A stretch of DNA of 64,000 nucleotides from Luteolibacter ambystomatis (GTDB taxonomy: Bacteria; Verrucomicrobiota; Verrucomicrobiia; Verrucomicrobiales; Akkermansiaceae): NCBI RefSeq assembly GCF_018137965.1, contig NZ_CP073100.1:1736001-1800000 (forward strand), given 5' to 3'. How positions within the stretch are numbered: position 1 is the stretch's first letter; each line of letters opens with the position of its first letter. This document shows, piece by piece, positions 11,083 through 21,584 of the stretch. Below the pieces are notes generated by a model. It ran no database searches, was not told the DNA's origin, and saw only the letters and a program-made list of their open reading frames with translations. The position numbers and the translations under genes were made by a program.

Positions 11083-12216
11083 ATGCACCCTGAAGATCCA
11101 CAAGAAGCCCCCGACTTCGAACCGGTCGAGCCGCCGCCAAATTCCGTCTGGCGGAAGCTCGGAGGAGGATCGCTTTCCATTTCCATCGTCGTCCACGCCA
11201 TCTTGCTCTCCATCGGCGTGGTGTGGATCTTCCAAGTCGTTCCCGAGAAACCACCCGCTGACATCGATTTCATCCCACGGGGCGGCGGAGGTGGCACTCC
11301 CGGTGTGAAAAGTGAGATCGCCCAACACAAGCGCGCCACGATGATGTCCGCTACTCCCCTGCGGATGGCTGCCAAAGGCGCGTCCAGCAGCTTCGTACTG
11401 CCGGAAATCGATCCGGCTTCTTCGATGGCCTCGGTGGGTTCCCTCACGCCGGGAGGCCTTTCCGGAGGGATCGGCGGCAGCGGTTCCGGAGGCGGCCGGG
11501 GTGATGGACATGGCCGCGGCATGGGATCGGGCAATGGAATGGGCGCGGGAATCGGCATGGCTCCTCCCGCGGCCCTGTTTTTCAACCAGAAGGTAGAGGC
11601 CCAGCGCGTCGCCTATGTGATCGACTACTCGGCCTCCATGACCGGCAAGCGTGAGAAACTCATGCGCAAGGAGCTTGCCGCATCAGTCAGCGGACTCTCG
11701 CCGCTGTCGAAGTTCCAACTCATCTTTTTCTCAGGTCCCGCCTGGGTGGCCGGGGATGCCGTCGTAGGCGACAACCAGAGTGGCAAGGTCGAGGTCCAGT
11801 CTCCAAAGGGCGAAAAGTTCAAGTGGGAGGCGGAGAAAAGCTGGACCGGTGAATGGAAAACCCTCGGCCGACGCCAGCGCCCGGAATGGGCGGATGCCAC
11901 CAATGAAATGAAAGAAACGGCGGCCCGCCGCATCCAGGAAACCAAGCTCAGCTACGGCACCTGTTGGGCGCCTTCATTGGAAATGGCGCTGGCGATGGAG
12001 CCGCCTCCGGACGTGATCTTCTTCATGACGGACGGTGTGGCGGAAAACACCGAGATGCGGACGATCATCGCCAAGGCCAAGACCAAGGGCACCGTGATCA
12101 ATACCATCGCCATGATGGAACCGGCTGCGGGCGAGGATATGAAGAAGCTCGCCCACGGCACCGGCGGAAAATTCACCATCGTTGAAGAGAATGGTCAGGC
12201 GAAAGTGGAACCATAG
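11083..12216 (+). CDS. VWA protein 1 with TonB-like membrane anchor
   Basis: A 377-residue protein, first of three tandem paralogues. A short cytoplasmic segment (WRKLGGGS) leads into one membrane helix, LSISIVVHAILLSIGVVWIF (31-50). That helix carries S34-x3-H38, the same SxxxH spacing TonB uses to work with ExbB/ExbD. After it come ADIDFIPRGGGGG, a low-complexity linker with a strongly glycine-rich part (124-160) and a VWA domain from about 170. The metal site looks complete: DYSAS (181-185), T293 in YGTCW and D317 in FMTDGV. It should sit in the inner membrane with the VWA domain in the periplasm. Start ATG 11083; GTG 11056 is possible. Its VWA half differs clearly from the next two. Function unknown. 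Confidence 0.82.
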   Translation: MHPEDPQEAPDFEPVEPPPNSVWRKLGGGSLSISIVVHAILLSIGVVWIFQVVPEKPPADIDFIPRGGGGGTPGVKSEIAQHKRATMMSATPLRMAAKGASSSFVLPEIDPASSMASVGSLTPGGLSGGIGGSGSGGGRGDGHGRGMGSGNGMGAGIGMAPPAALFFNQKVEAQRVAYVIDYSASMTGKREKLMRKELAASVSGLSPLSKFQLIFFSGPAWVAGDAVVGDNQSGKVEVQSPKGEKFKWEAEKSWTGEWKTLGRRQRPEWADATNEMKETAARRIQETKLSYGTCWAPSLEMALAMEPPPDVIFFMTDGVAENTEMRTIIAKAKTKGTVINTIAMMEPAAGEDMKKLAHGTGGKFTIVEENGQAKVEP

Positions 12217-12289
12217 TTCCGGCCCCATCCCGAAATTACGACATCCCGCACTTTGCATGTAACAAACCGGACCCTCCCGGTAATACGGA

Positions 12290-13417
12290 ATGAAACCCGT
12301 CTTTGTTCGCATGCAGTCTCCTTCCGACGATCCGTTACCCGAATTTACCCCCTCTCCCGCTCCCGCCCGCCAGTCCGTATGGAAAAAACTCGGCGGCGGC
12401 TCTCTCTCGATCTCGATCATCGTTCACGCGATCCTGCTTTCCATCGGCGTGATCTGGATCTTCCAGGTGATGCCGGCCCAAAAGGCTGCGGACATCGATT
12501 TTCTTCCAAAAGGCGGTGGTGGCGGTTCTCCGGGGGTGAAAGAAGTCAGCAACCGCAAGCAGCGCGCCACCATGACAGCGGCGAACATGCCCCGCATGGC
12601 GGCCAAGGGAGCCTCAAGCAGTTTCGTCCTTCCGGAGCCCGAGGCCACGTCCGCCATGACCTCGCTGGGCGCGCTCTCGTCCGGCAGTCTTTCCGGAGGG
12701 CTCGGCGGCTCCGGTTCCGGCGGCGGCCGGGGCGATGGGAATGGCACGGGTTTCGGCAGTGGCAGTGGCGCGGGTCTCGGTGGCGGCGCGGGAGGGATGA
12801 AGCCCTTCGCCGGAGTCATGTTCGGCAATCCGGTGAAAGCCCGCACCATCGGCGTGGTATTGGATGTTTCCGGTTCCATGACCCCACATCTGTCGAAAGT
12901 CATCAAGGAACTCGACCGTGTGGCGGAGGGCAGCCCGCTGATTCTCCACGTCGGCTGTGGAATCGGCCCCGGCCGGCCGGAAGGCCGCAGCTATTCGACC
13001 ACGGACATCGAGCAGAAGCGCTTCGAACGCTATTGGCGACTGAACCACAACGGCAAGAACATCACCATCTCCAAGGGCAGTTCGAAGGAAAAAATCGACT
13101 TCTCCACCCCGATTCCCGAAGAACCTCTTTTCCGCCAGCTCGCCACCCGTGGCAATACCTACTATGTGGAGTTCGACGGGGTGCAATACACATCGAGCGC
13201 ACTCCTGGCGAAGGAACTGAAGGACGTGGAAGCCGTCTATTGGTTCGCGGACTTCCAGGACAAGATCGACGAAAAGGAAGCGGAAGACGTGGCCCGCCGG
13301 TTGAAGGCGAAGAAACAGAAGCTCTATATCCACGCTTCGGTGGAGGGGAAATACTTCTCCCAAGCTCGGGATCTGCTGGTGAATCCCACCGGCGGGGCTG
13401 TGATCTCGACCAAATAA
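12290..13417 (+). CDS. VWA protein 2 with TonB-like membrane anchor
   Basis: A 375-residue paralogue of the preceding gene, 73 bases downstream. The anchor is LSISIIVHAILLSIGVIWIF with S42-x3-H46, followed by ADIDFLPKGGGGGSPGVK and a glycine-rich linker to about residue 168. The VWA domain has DVSGS (192-196), a candidate Thr near 301 and D321 in YWFADFQD, so metal binding is likely. Between about residues 147 and 196 its protein sequence is identical to VWA protein 3, while the DNA differs at many third positions. It likely forms part of an inner-membrane assembly with its neighbours. ATG 12290 was chosen; ATG 12311 is an alternative. No enzyme motif is visible. Confidence 0.82.
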   Translation: MKPVFVRMQSPSDDPLPEFTPSPAPARQSVWKKLGGGSLSISIIVHAILLSIGVIWIFQVMPAQKAADIDFLPKGGGGGSPGVKEVSNRKQRATMTAANMPRMAAKGASSSFVLPEPEATSAMTSLGALSSGSLSGGLGGSGSGGGRGDGNGTGFGSGSGAGLGGGAGGMKPFAGVMFGNPVKARTIGVVLDVSGSMTPHLSKVIKELDRVAEGSPLILHVGCGIGPGRPEGRSYSTTDIEQKRFERYWRLNHNGKNITISKGSSKEKIDFSTPIPEEPLFRQLATRGNTYYVEFDGVQYTSSALLAKELKDVEAVYWFADFQDKIDEKEAEDVARRLKAKKQKLYIHASVEGKYFSQARDLLVNPTGGAVISTK

Positions 13418-13529
13418 GCCGCCGGGCAGCACGTGACCCGCTTGTTGCGGAATAGCCAGAACGATTGGGGATTTTGCTCGTCACACGCAGCCCACAACGT
13501 CGCATGGTGAGGAGAACCCATTCTCGTCC

Positions 13530-14651
13530 ATGCATACCCTCGATGTCCCTGCTGTTTCCGCAGATAGCCCCTCGCCATTACCCGCTCCGACTCCGGCCGC
13601 GCGCCAATCGTTCTGGAAGAAGCTCGGAGGCGGGTCGCTTTCCATTTCCATCGTCGTCCATGCGATCCTCCTTTCCATCGGTGTCATCTGGATCTTCCAG
13701 GTGATGCCGGAGCAAAAGCCTGCGGACATCGATTTTCTGCCGAAAGGTGGTGGCGGCGGTTCTCCCGGAGTCAAGGAGATCAGCAACCGCAAGCAGCGTG
13801 CCACCATGACCCCCGCCAACGCCCCGCGAATGGCGGCAAAGGGAGCATCCAGCGGTTTCGTCCTGCCGGAACCGGAGCCTGCGTCCGCCATGACTTCGCT
13901 CGGCTCGCTTTCCTCCAGGTCTCTGTCCGGAGGATTGGGTGGCAGCGGTTCCGGAGGTGGCCGGGGTGATGGAAATGGCACGGGCTTCGGCAGCGGCAGT
14001 GGCGCGGGTCTCGGTGGCGGTGCTGGAGGCATGAAGCCCTTTGCCGGAGTCATGTTCGGCAACCCGGTGAAAGCCCGTACCATTGGCGTGGTGCTGGACG
14101 TTTCCGGCTCCATGAGCTCCCACCTCCCGAAGGTCATCAAGGAACTCGACCGGGTGGCGGAAGGCAGCCCGTTGGTACTCTACGTCGGCTGCGGCATCGG
14201 GCCGGGCCGGGCGGTCACCCGCACCTACTCCACCATGGATATCGAGGAAAAACGGTTCGAACGCTTCTGGCGGCTCAACCGCAATGGCAAGTATATGACA
14301 TTGGAACAGGGCAGTGCCAAGGAGAAGGTGGACTTCACCACACCGCTCCCAAATGAATCGCTCTTCCGGCAGTTGGCAGCCCGGGGAAACACGTCCTATG
14401 TGGACTACCAAGGCGACGAGTTTGCTTGGACCGCTCTCCTTGCAAAAGAACTTCGCGACGTGGAGGCAGTCTATTGGTTCGCCGATTTCCAGGATCCGGT
14501 GGACGAGAAGGAGGCCAAAGACGTCATGTACCGCCTGAAGGCCAAGCGCCAGAAACTCTACATCCACGCCTCCGTGGAGGGGAAATATTTCACCCAGGTC
14601 CGCGATCTGATCGTCACCCCCACCGGTGGTGCCGTGATCTCCACAAAATGA
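13530..14651 (+). CDS. VWA protein 3 with TonB-like membrane anchor
   Basis: A 373-residue paralogue, 112 bases after VWA protein 2. The anchor helix is LSISIVVHAILLSIGVIWIF with S40-x3-H44, followed by ADIDFLPKGGGGGSPGVK, a glycine-rich linker and a VWA domain with DVSGS (190-194) and a late Asp in YWFADFQD. It ends with the same PTGGAVISTK as VWA protein 2. A purine-rich AGGAG lies about 17 bases before ATG 13530. The three genes share one orientation and could be transcribed together, though gaps of 70-110 bases leave room for separate promoters. No ExbB/ExbD genes occur in the window. Function unknown. Confidence 0.82.
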   Translation: MHTLDVPAVSADSPSPLPAPTPAARQSFWKKLGGGSLSISIVVHAILLSIGVIWIFQVMPEQKPADIDFLPKGGGGGSPGVKEISNRKQRATMTPANAPRMAAKGASSGFVLPEPEPASAMTSLGSLSSRSLSGGLGGSGSGGGRGDGNGTGFGSGSGAGLGGGAGGMKPFAGVMFGNPVKARTIGVVLDVSGSMSSHLPKVIKELDRVAEGSPLVLYVGCGIGPGRAVTRTYSTMDIEEKRFERFWRLNRNGKYMTLEQGSAKEKVDFTTPLPNESLFRQLAARGNTSYVDYQGDEFAWTALLAKELRDVEAVYWFADFQDPVDEKEAKDVMYRLKAKRQKLYIHASVEGKYFTQVRDLIVTPTGGAVISTK

Positions 14652-18293: not shown

Positions 18294-21200
18294 ATGGATA
18301 CCGAAGCCAACGTGCGCCGCTACTGGGCGTTCATCAGCTACAGCCACACCGACAAGGCGTGGGCGGATTGGCTTCACAAATCCCTGGAACGTTACCCGTT
18401 GCCCAAGGATCTGGTTGGTCGCAAGACCCCGTCGGAAGACCCCGCACCGAAACGCTTCGTGCCCGTGTTCCGGGATCGCGAGGAACTGCCCACGGCCACC
18501 GATCTCGGTGCGGTCATCGCCAAGGCGCTGAAGCACGCCCGCTTCCTCGTCGTCATCTGTTCCCCACGCAGCGCGAAGTCGCAATGGGTCGAGCAGGAGA
18601 TCATTTCCTACAAGCGACTCTATGGCGAAAACCGCGTCCTGTGCCTGATTGTCGAAGGTGAACCATGGGCCAGCGATGGCAAACCCGGCAGCTCTCCGGA
18701 TCAGGAATGCTTTCCCAAAGCCGTGCGCTATCGCCTGGGTGCGAATGGCAATCTATCGGACCAACGCACCGAACCCATCGCCGCGGATGCGCGCGAAACC
18801 GGTGATGGCAAGCAGAACGCCTTCATCAAACTCATGGCCGGGCTCCTCGGCGTGGGATTCGATGATCTCCGCCGCCGCGATCAGGAATACCAGCGCCGCC
18901 GCGTGCGGATCTTCCGCGCACTAACAGGTCTCTTCGCCCTGCTCTTCCTGGCCGCCATCTCCGCCGCCACCTATGCGGCGATCCAGAAGCACAAGGTCCA
19001 GCAGACCCTCAGCCAGGCCGATCTCCAGCTCGCCCTGGTCGCACGGGACAAGGACGAGGTTTCCCAAAGCGCGGCCTATCTCGCGCGCTCGCTGCGATCC
19101 GATCCGGCCAATCGCGAGGCCGCCGTCGCCGCATGGTCATTGCTCGCCCATCGTCAACACCATGCACCAGTCGGTCCCGCTCTGCGTCATCCCAATGCCG
19201 TCGTGGCGGCCGTCGGCTCTGCTGATGAAAAGTGGATCGCCACCGGCAGCGGCAGCGAGGTCTATCTCTGGTCGCGACCGGATCACAAGCTGGTCACGAA
19301 GCAATCGCCCGATGGCTCACCCGTGACCGCCTTCTCGTTGGACACGGATAGGAAGGGCTTCGTCGTCTCCACCCGTTCGGGAAAGATCCATCACCTGTCC
19401 TTCGATTCACTCAAGCCATTTTCCGAACCGATCGCCACCGGTTCCGTGCCCGCGATCCAGGTGACATGGAGTCCGAAGGGCGATCAACTGGCCGTGGCTC
19501 TCGCGGGCGATGACGCCGGCAGCAATGGCGGCACCTTGGTGCGGTTCGCTGCGGATGGTCGCGAACTTGAGCGCATCCCCGCCACACATTTGGTTCCGAA
19601 GGTGATCGCTTGGTCGCCGGATGGTACGCGTCTCGCTGTCGCCGGAGATTCACCCAATGTGCTGCTCGCCACCATCGGTGAAAAGTCGTCCGCCACCCAG
19701 ACACTCAAGTCCAAGCTGGCCGTAACCGGGCTGCACTTCATCACAGCCGATCAACTGACGACCATCGATGTCTTCACCGGTCTGCAAACATGGGATCTGG
19801 TGAAGGGCATCCCATCGGAAGCCAAGCAACTCGCGCCCAGCGTATCCGGTGCGGCCTTTTCTCCGGATGGCCGTTCGTTCCTCGGCACGCGCCGTGGCCC
19901 GGCCGCCTACGTGTACGATAGTAGCACGGGAAAGATCGCGACCGAACCCATCTCTCCCGGCTTCACGATTTCAAACGCCCGCTGGCTGGACAACCGGCAT
20001 GTCCTCCTGACCTCGGAAAACGGACTCGCCCAGGTCCGGCGCATCCGGAATGCGATTCCCGCCGCCGCAGCGGTCTGCGTGCCGGACGGCTATCCGGAAG
20101 CCGTCGCCTTGCATGCCGATGGATTCACACTGGCGGTCGCCTACACGGAGGACTCGCTTGTTCGGTTCTATGATACCCGCACGATGACAGCGACCGGCCA
20201 TCCGGTGCGTTTTCCATCCAAAGTGTTGTCGCTGGGCTTCTCCGACGATGGAAAGACACTCGCTGTCTTGGGATGGGACGGTCATCTCCATACCACCCGA
20301 TGGGAACACGCGTTGAAGATTGAAACCGGCAAGGATCTCATCGCACCGCCCACGACTTCATCCTACAGCAAGGCGACGCTTGGCCAGTTCGCGCCGAAAG
20401 GCAATGTGCTCGCCATTCCCGATGGCCGGGAACTGATCTTCGCCGACCTCCTCACCGGCACCATCAAGACACGCAAGCAATTCGACCGCAAGGTGGCCTC
20501 CCTTGCCTGGACGGATGATGGATCGACTCTGCTGGTCGCCCGCGAGGATCAACTGCTCTCGTTCCAGCGCCCCGATGGTTCCCCCGCCCCCAACCGGCCG
20601 GTGATCCGTCTCAATGCCCCGGCTATCGAACTGGCGGATGGCGGAGAGCGCGTGGCCGTGCTGTCGAATGCGGACCGCATCGATTGTTTCGACAGTCACA
20701 GCGGGGCTCCCAGCGGCACCAGTTTCCAAGCTGGCGCCAATATCACCGGGCTGAAGTGGGATGCCGCTCATGAATGGGTCATCGCGGGTGACATGGATGG
20801 CCGCGCCAGCCTGTGGGATCCCACCGCCGGCCAGGCCCTCGGCCACCTGCCGCGATCCGGCAACATCTGGCACGGCGGTGTGACCTTGCCGGGACGTTCC
20901 GCCGAACTGCTGCGCTTGGATGAATCCATGACGGTCGTACCACTGCTTCCACCCGGTCGCGTTCCGGATTGGCTGCCATCCTTCCTGGAAGGATTCTGTG
21001 GCAACCGCCTCGCGGAGAAGAAGGACGACACGTTGATCGACGTGGACGCGTGGCGTTCCTCCGATGCTGCACCTTCGCCCGGCGAGAAAGGACCTTGGGT
21101 AGACCTCTACTATTGGCTGATGAATGATGCAGCCGATCGCCCTGCCGCACCAGGCTCGACCTTCAACGAATCGCAAACGCGCGACAATCTCATGCTGCAG

Positions 21201-21584
21201 GAGAAATCCGAGCAACTCATCCGCCTGCAGAAGACCATCCAGGAGGAATGGAACTCGAATGAAACGCCGCGCATGCAGAAGGCCGCGGATCTTCTCGACA
21301 ACGCCATCGCACTCCTGCCGGGCAATACCGCCAATCACAAGGTGAAGGTGCTGATGGCCACCACCGTCGGAAACGCCGGACTCATCCGGAATGCGAACCT
21401 TGGTCTCGCCGCCGCCAGCGATGCCACGCTCATCGAGATCCTCGATGCGAAAGCGGAAGCCGCGAAGCAATGCCTTGCCATGACTCCGCCGCAAACGGAC
21501 CAAGCCCGTGCGTTGATCGATGAGATCTTGAAGGAGAATCCGGAGCACGCCGCCACGCTCGAACTGCGGAAGCAGCTGAAGTAA
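18294..21584 (+). CDS. TIR-transmembrane-WD40-like repeat protein
   Basis: A 1096-residue single-gene unit. Residues 8-120 form a TIR domain: FISYSHTDKAWADWLH (13-28), RDREELP, and SPRSAKSQWVEQEI with E102, which aligns with the catalytic Glu of NAD-cleaving TIRs such as SARM1. A membrane helix follows at about 209-230 (ALTGLFALLFLAAISAATYA). The rest, 270-900, is full of short WD40-like units (AWSPDGTRLAVAGD, AFSPDGRSFLGTR, GFSDDGKTLAVLGW), then a helical tail. The TIR part should lie in the cytoplasm and the propeller probably in the periplasm, although topology is not certain. No effector or sensor partner gene adjoins it. Signalling or NAD-based defence are both possible; neither is shown. 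Confidence 0.85.
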   Translation: MDTEANVRRYWAFISYSHTDKAWADWLHKSLERYPLPKDLVGRKTPSEDPAPKRFVPVFRDREELPTATDLGAVIAKALKHARFLVVICSPRSAKSQWVEQEIISYKRLYGENRVLCLIVEGEPWASDGKPGSSPDQECFPKAVRYRLGANGNLSDQRTEPIAADARETGDGKQNAFIKLMAGLLGVGFDDLRRRDQEYQRRRVRIFRALTGLFALLFLAAISAATYAAIQKHKVQQTLSQADLQLALVARDKDEVSQSAAYLARSLRSDPANREAAVAAWSLLAHRQHHAPVGPALRHPNAVVAAVGSADEKWIATGSGSEVYLWSRPDHKLVTKQSPDGSPVTAFSLDTDRKGFVVSTRSGKIHHLSFDSLKPFSEPIATGSVPAIQVTWSPKGDQLAVALAGDDAGSNGGTLVRFAADGRELERIPATHLVPKVIAWSPDGTRLAVAGDSPNVLLATIGEKSSATQTLKSKLAVTGLHFITADQLTTIDVFTGLQTWDLVKGIPSEAKQLAPSVSGAAFSPDGRSFLGTRRGPAAYVYDSSTGKIATEPISPGFTISNARWLDNRHVLLTSENGLAQVRRIRNAIPAAAAVCVPDGYPEAVALHADGFTLAVAYTEDSLVRFYDTRTMTATGHPVRFPSKVLSLGFSDDGKTLAVLGWDGHLHTTRWEHALKIETGKDLIAPPTTSSYSKATLGQFAPKGNVLAIPDGRELIFADLLTGTIKTRKQFDRKVASLAWTDDGSTLLVAREDQLLSFQRPDGSPAPNRPVIRLNAPAIELADGGERVAVLSNADRIDCFDSHSGAPSGTSFQAGANITGLKWDAAHEWVIAGDMDGRASLWDPTAGQALGHLPRSGNIWHGGVTLPGRSAELLRLDESMTVVPLLPPGRVPDWLPSFLEGFCGNRLAEKKDDTLIDVDAWRSSDAAPSPGEKGPWVDLYYWLMNDAADRPAAPGSTFNESQTRDNLMLQEKSEQLIRLQKTIQEEWNSNETPRMQKAADLLDNAIALLPGNTANHKVKVLMATTVGNAGLIRNANLGLAAASDATLIEILDAKAEAAKQCLAMTPPQTDQARALIDEILKENPEHAATLELRKQLK

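Follow-up and report, generated by a model that had tools for sequence, protein, structure and literature searches.

A shared anchor module with exchangeable heads: three tandem VWA proteins of Luteolibacter ambystomatis as candidate force transducers of an ExbBD-type motor

Three tandem genes of Luteolibacter ambystomatis (Verrucomicrobiota), at positions 11083 to 14651 of a 64,000-nucleotide stretch of contig NZ_CP073100.1 (the whole stretch is referred to as the window), encode proteins that are probably inner-membrane-anchored, vWA-type force transducers of one shared ExbBD motor; docking, force and sharing of the motor are all predicted from sequence. Their N-terminal portion, the N-module, is common to 13 proteins of this genome. 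In relatives it carries three types of head (VWA, PA14-like and toroid), genes of each head type lie in TPR-ExbB-ExbD-ExbD operons, and the N-module co-occurs with one type of motor. Since three head types share this anchor in relatives, one motor probably drives interchangeable arms. The evidence tips slightly towards a wider modular system, in which one ExbBD-type motor would drive a genome-wide set of separate arms with a shared anchor and linker and exchangeable VWA, PA14-like or alpha/alpha-toroid heads, several envelope partners being served. To our knowledge, TonB and TolA are the only well-studied force carriers from an ExbBD-type motor.

The three window proteins and the N-module

The genes are separated by gaps of 73 and 112 bases. 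Each product opens with a short stretch ahead of its only membrane helix, the one with Ser-x3-His; a conserved ADIDF(L/I)P-type segment, a Gly-rich linker and the C-terminal domain follow. Their features, in window positions, are as follows.

11083-12216, plus strand: VWA force-transducer-like protein 1, 377 aa (open reading frame, ORF; S34/H38; DxSxS...T...TDG metal motif)
11140-11544, plus strand: protein 1 N-module (anchor, D-box-like segment, Gly-rich linker)
11164-11238, plus strand: protein 1 membrane helix (alignment to protein 3)
11254-11280, plus strand: protein 1 D-box/motor-box-like segment (counterpart of the protein 3 segment)
11578-12213, plus strand: protein 1 VWA domain, divergent in sequence
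12290-13417, plus strand: VWA force-transducer-like protein 2, 375 aa (ORF; S42/H46)
12374-12775, plus strand: protein 2 N-module
12395-12469, plus strand: protein 2 membrane helix (alignment to protein 3)
12485-12511, plus strand: protein 2 D-box/motor-box-like segment (counterpart of the protein 3 segment)
12818-13414, plus strand: protein 2 VWA domain (by alignment)
13530-14651, plus strand: VWA force-transducer-like protein 3, 373 aa (ORF; S40/H44)
13605-14009, plus strand: protein 3 N-module
13629-13703, plus strand: protein 3 membrane helix, holding S40 and H44 (helix 34-58 of the AlphaFold 2, AF2, model)
13719-13745, plus strand: protein 3 D-box/motor-box-like segment, residues 64-72 (conserved V/I-D-F-L/M-P columns; putative function)
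14052-14648, plus strand: protein 3 VWA domain (AF2 model and fold alignment)

A preliminary description of this DNA had reported three tandem paralogues with a Ser-x3-His helix and a Gly-rich linker. This is borne out, the ORFs and the positions S34/H38, S42/H46 and S40/H44 being exact, and each pair sits in the sole long N-terminal hydrophobic helix of its protein. Proteins 2 and 3 are 80-81% identical to each other and 42% and 44% identical, respectively, to protein 1. The helix motif sets the family apart in a non-random sample of 315 ORFs picked around N-module and motor genes of the same genome: among the 107 with an N-terminal hydrophobic helix, Ser-x3-His occurs in 13, all of them family genes, and in none of the 94 others.

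A search of the 5.32-Mb, one-contig genome (C1 of genome G000) with the three window proteins found 13 N-module genes, and a model of the N-module returned the same 13. The module is defined as the portion common to all of them, approximately residues 28-160 of protein 3. A fourteenth match (C1:3558062, E 1.49) was rejected as spurious, as it falls on a helix within an unrelated-looking membrane protein. The heads are VWA in four genes and PA14-like in nine. In a Pfam scan of eight PA14-type members, one scored above the cut-off (26.1 versus 24 bits), six scored below it and one had no match. In the ninth, C1:2821515, the N-module and PA14 portions are in different frames; this split gene (L038:6653-7962, within G000:C1:2814000-2830000, minus strand) consists of a 153-aa N-module ORF overlapping a 295-aa PA14 ORF. 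Toroid-type proteins are also present, and the three that were read all begin with an apparent signal peptide instead of the N-module anchor (a weak match in a 2102-aa frame lies outside these).

With the outlier L029 left out, the 13 N-modules show amino-acid identities of 0.64-0.98 and 4-fold-site identities of 0.33-0.82, mostly 0.35-0.6. As the 4-fold sites have diverged while the amino acids are kept, the likeness of these N-modules appears to be held by selection and not by recent copying. Recent copying was rejected as a general explanation, with the closest pair, L021/L025, as a possible exception.

Conservation across relatives points to one face of the helix. An iterative hidden Markov model search of loci fetched from 59 genomes (58 relatives and L. 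ambystomatis) yielded 84 non-redundant N-module proteins, including the 13 described above. The His column holds His in 80 of the 84, or 81 if L137, with its His shifted by one place, is counted; the other exceptions are L077, L062 and L119. By its conservation moment, the helix is conserved on the side that bears Ser, His and a Gly/Ala at His+7 (permutation p 0.011). This moment and the column counts use 81 rows (L062, L119 and L137, with divergent or shifted helices, were left out), in which a V/I-D-F-L/M-P segment lies 23-27 residues after the His, with F in 73, D in 65 and P in 67.

These features recall TonB. In Escherichia coli, TonB Ser16 and His20 contact ExbB Ser34 and Trp38 (PMC12215075). 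The TonB D-box is a proline-flanked segment past the helix that is captured by ExbD as a strand; the D-box peptide comprises residues 43-54, which is 23-34 residues after His20 (PMC10907165). Like TonB and TolA, the window proteins have Ser-x3-His in their sole membrane helix and a proline-flanked segment soon after it, and by analogy the VDFLP-like segment of the N-module may be functionally equal to the D-box. Unlike TonB and TolA, they have a Gly-rich linker, other heads and no TonB_C match (no TonB/TolA C-terminal domain was found by Pfam in the three proteins at E 1), and they do not keep the Leu and last Ser of the SHLS pattern (S-x3-H-x6-L-x3-S), positions that are less conserved in Ton systems (PMC12215075).

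The head of protein 3 is best read as a VWA fold from its predicted structure, that of protein 2 by its identity to protein 3, and that of protein 1 by weak Pfam matches. Pfam VWA scored 23.6 bits in protein 1, marginally below the cut-off of 23.8, and had no match in proteins 2 and 3 at E 1; the protein 1 domain is, by sequence, of another subtype than the other two. The AF2 model of protein 3, made from a 38-row alignment, has a mean predicted local distance difference test score of 72.7, with helix 34-58 and the C-terminal domain confident and the linker disordered. Residues ~166-373 of the model align with VWA-fold chains at a best Z of 9.8 (VIA-align, with which a best Z of 7-8 is common even for chains that have no clear match), with 123 residues aligned at a root-mean-square deviation of 3.1. 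Foldseek gave nothing below E 1e-3, and its top rows were mainly VWA and I domains. The apparently complete metal site claimed for all three proteins is safe for protein 1 only, in which DxSxS, a Thr and TDG are seen by eye. The 38-row alignment shows D190, S192 and S194 of DxSxS and a later Asp, D319, to be invariant for proteins 2 and 3, in which the Thr of the site is not assignable by sequence.

Exchange of heads among relatives

Matches to a model of the three proteins occur in 43 of the 59 genomes. A first search for relatives with the window proteins found none, because both its peptide patterns lay in the anchor region; a wider alignment succeeded. A search with VWA-core peptides, its matches confirmed by whole-protein tblastn, gave 131 VWA relatives. 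The best 80 of these come mostly from Verrucomicrobiaceae, Prosthecobacter, Verrucomicrobium, Brevifollis and other Verrucomicrobiota, and all 74 with a readable helix have x-x3-H (67 Ser, 4 Thr and 3 Ala); five are ORFs without a full N-terminus and one is a match without an ORF. That non-VWA heads also carry the anchor goes beyond what the preliminary description could see.

By their C-terminal portions, the 84 N-module proteins fall into 33 VWA, 30 toroid and 20 PA14-like members and one headless fragment. All four toroid members scanned exceed the Pfam cut-off for squalene-hopene cyclase domains, one of them barely; the head is taken as an alpha/alpha-toroid (squalene-cyclase-like) fold and not as a cyclase. 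For 83 N-modules (without L028, the fragment that lacks a head), the tree needs 18 changes of head type against a minimum of 2, while shuffled heads require a mean of 38.2, so that heads are still clustered. In L. ambystomatis, the VWA- and PA14-headed copies come together in a single clade (11 of 12 rows, 100/99); mixing of heads is seen inside other lineages too. Single forks are unsure because few columns serve many rows and long branches meet. Overall, N-modules appear to group mostly by lineage and not by head.

Nine N-module genes occur in one relative, compared with 13 in L. ambystomatis. In L090:6358-10709, three N-module genes with PA14, VWA and PA14 heads stand in tandem. Toroid and VWA transducer genes adjoin each other in L131:3956-7776 and L138:2706-7031, with no ExbB/ExbD detected in either locus.

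Motor linkage and co-occurrence

Pfam finds 8 ExbB and 12 ExbD matches in the L. ambystomatis genome. None lies inside the window, as the preliminary description had stated, and the complete lack of such genes that it named as fatal to its idea does not apply. Its suggestion to look for unpaired ExbB/ExbD genes found none, as all seven strong ExbB genes adjoin an ExbD. The candidate partner is the operon at G000:C1:1075392-1081949, ~0.67 Mb from the window genes, which encodes a 977-aa TPR protein with an N-terminal signal peptide (by eye), a 276-aa protein, an ExbB at 1079233 and four ExbD-like proteins; no N-module gene was found in this operon. The fourth ExbD-like gene (L045:9516-9950, approximately G000:C1 1081515-1081949) has, by eye, an N-terminal helix without Asp, and it sits about where relatives carry the transducer gene.

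Linkage to motors was counted for 79 N-module genes (10 of them from L. ambystomatis) in larger loci, which were hand-chosen from matches and are non-random. On the same strand and no more than 5 kb upstream, ExbB/ExbD genes were found for 17 of the 28 toroid genes and for 3 of the 30 VWA genes; of the 20 PA14 genes, 3 immediately precede the TPR gene of such a motor operon. In total, 23 of the 79 are motor-linked, and none of the 10 from L. ambystomatis. These counts include L134, with a single ExbD in view, a second L092 gene that stands behind another toroid gene, and L137, with a gap of 2.7 kb. Of the 17 linked loci whose upstream stretch is intact, 16 encode a TPR protein (L125 is truncated and L137 has none), and the gene for the 276-aa protein accompanies linked loci in the genus Luteolibacter. 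The ExbB at C1:1079233 shares 51-76% identity with 16 of 17 linked ExbBs and 34% with that of L137, while the other ExbBs of the genome share ~30%; the C1:1079233 copy has the pore Thr residues and the Pro of transmembrane helix 3 (TM3). The C1:1075392-1081949 operon, which has the TPR and 276-aa genes in common with linked loci, is the orthologue of the linked motor of relatives.

In the wider phylum, 11 of 144 genomes (L. ambystomatis included) have an N-module at E 1e-10. Eleven loci from nine genomes were inspected with flanks of only ~1.5 kb (L271 was left out, as its genome was already represented), and in five of them VWA or PA14 genes lie within ~450 bases of an ExbD, some with an ExbB as well. 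The VWA genes among these are in L264, L266, L268 and L269.

Co-occurrence was scored among the 58 relatives at cut-offs of E 1e-8 for the N-module and E 1e-40 for the C1:1079233-type motor. Both were present in 33 genomes, the N-module only in 2 (G025, 57% complete, and G042), the motor only in 1 (G034, 70% complete) and neither in 22 (Fisher p 1e-12, kinship ignored). Within the genus, at a completeness of at least 90%, the corresponding counts are 14/0/0/8. A control motor, of the C1:2208339 type, gave 34/1/19/4 (p 0.07) and is found in 54 of the 59 genomes with or without N-modules. That the partner might instead be another ExbB-ExbD pair of the genome, such as this C1:2208339 motor, is very unlikely given the lack of a clear association, even though a related pair, with an ExbB 43-47% identical to that of L041 in L. 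ambystomatis, directly follows the toroid transducer gene in five loci (L084, L114, L120, L122 and L123).

TonB-like genes beside other motors of L. ambystomatis (L039, L042, L043 and L044) have no S-x3-H in the helix by eye, that of L043 having S-x3-N. The operons in L039 and L040 (G000:C1:341000-357000 and 606000-621000) are near-copies ~265 kb apart, each with ExbB, ExbD, a TonB-like gene and further genes, and the aligned portions of their ExbBs look identical. In the window, the neighbours of the trio are a minus-strand queD-like gene and carA (named by eye). A promoter scan gave nothing useful. At 18294-21584, a 1096-aa ORF has, by eye, a TIR-like domain followed by WD40-like repeats.

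Proposed mechanism and relation to known systems

The preliminary description knew of no described system of this form, a statement that is now outdated, as PMC12204202 (Mol Biol Evol 2025) already proposes SHLS-anchored vWA transducers and the kind of protein is thus known. In that paper, vWA proteins with an SHLS helix from several phyla, including Verrucomicrobia, are proposed by prediction as motor-driven force transducers, their function being unknown. It describes a predicted strand (motor box/D-box) in the disordered region after the helix, and genes of the Planctomycetes-Verrucomicrobia-Chlamydiae (PVC) group that are often downstream of a TPR, a tolQ-like and two tolR-like genes. The window proteins resemble its Tichowtungia-type transducers in their N-terminal helix with a conserved His, disordered linker of ~100 residues and vWA head. 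The PVC-group gene order is found at the VWA relatives L128 and L130 and not at the window genes; since the paper says 'often', this does not exclude the latter from the vWA transducer family. A second family in the same paper, TPH-vWA, likewise has a vWA head on one helix, with a helix Asp that enters the pentamer; unlike it, the window proteins have Ser and His and no Asp in the helix, and their partner operons include ExbD genes.

Unlike the vWA transducers presented in PMC12204202, the N-module genes of L. ambystomatis are multi-copy orphans that are not adjacent to motors, and the same N-module is also found on PA14-like and toroid heads. The main text of that paper has no mention of PA14, squalene, toroid or prenyl, and the review PMC12905483 mentions neither vWA nor PA14. 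For PA14 or squalene-cyclase heads with ExbD, PMC12204202 was the only item that looked relevant in searches of the open-licence PMC literature, which does not show absence from print. What is new here is the 13-copy N-module, its three exchanged head types, the operon linkage of each head and the co-occurrence with one motor type.

In the proposed mechanism, the single N-terminal helix would dock by its Ser/His face onto an ExbB-type channel, and the ExbD dimer would capture the VDFLP-like segment. The ~100-residue Gly-rich linker would span into the periplasm, where the VWA head may hold a partner that is pulled or released by proton flow. The cognate motor is most likely the C1:1075392-1081949 operon, which would serve all 13 orphan transducers, whether their heads are VWA or PA14-like, and its TPR protein is a candidate partner of the head. 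The earlier idea of a periplasmic VWA domain driven by a proton-motive-force (pmf) motor is in this way partly supported, as the near-invariant His, the conserved helix face, the D-box-like segment, the ExbB-ExbD-ExbD linkage in relatives and the co-occurrence all fit it.

Several observations weigh against this proposal. The Ser column holds Ser in 54 and Ala in 30 of the 84 N-module proteins, so that homologues without the SxxxH pair, which the preliminary description regarded as contrary evidence, exist in part; the His is missing from its column in 4, one of which has it a single place away. The full SHLS pattern is absent, its Leu position being G in 47, A in 27 and L in 4 of 81 rows and its last Ser position I in 38 and V in 38. 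In the AF2 monomer model of protein 3, the D-box-like segment is unstructured and without a strand, and its strand nature is a prediction. The Ser and Trp of TM1 are five residues apart in motor-linked ExbBs, compared with four in the solved complex. None of the 13 N-module genes of L. ambystomatis adjoins a motor, 27 of 30 VWA genes in larger loci have no visible motor upstream, and among the best 80 of the 131 VWA relatives none of 79 ORFs has ExbB/ExbD within 5 kb upstream, some contigs being short. Finally, this motor type is missing from six further genomes (G004, G044, G049, G051, G054 and G057) whose divergent N-module proteins fall short of the 1e-8 cut-off, three of them showing an A-x3-H helix on inspection by eye. 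With these genomes included, the co-occurrence becomes 33/8/1/16 (p 1e-7, kinship ignored), which suggests that other motors are used or that the link is looser than it appears.

It is conceivable, though unlikely, that the N-module is a docking or localization tag only, tying periplasmic heads to the TPR scaffold or the motor and transmitting no force. The frequent TPR protein of linked loci and the 276-aa protein of the genus would suit such a role, and since the Gly-rich linker has no rigid Pro-rich or helical stretch like that of TonB/TolA, its sequence does not make tension transfer obvious. However, tension is still transmissible through Gly-rich linkers, and a His at the ExbB-contact position together with a D-box-like segment at TonB spacing are motor-contact features. 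Less likely again, the proteins may be plain membrane-anchored VWA/PA14 adhesins or chaperones, with Ser-x3-His serving helix packing and the motor linkage incidental. The orphan position of all 13 copies, distant from motors, the divergent-N-module genomes without this motor type, and the presence, among the fold matches of protein 3, of solved bacterial VWA structures with BatB or aerotolerance-related annotations are compatible with this view. It does not readily explain a His that is near-invariant across divergent heads, operons common to three heads, or co-occurrence with one motor type and not with the control motor.

If, as proposed for the force transducers, the anchor is a common coupling for unrelated heads, Verrucomicrobia would have more pmf-driven envelope processes than thought. 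Deleting a single motor should then have an effect on every arm, and the partners should be identifiable head by head.

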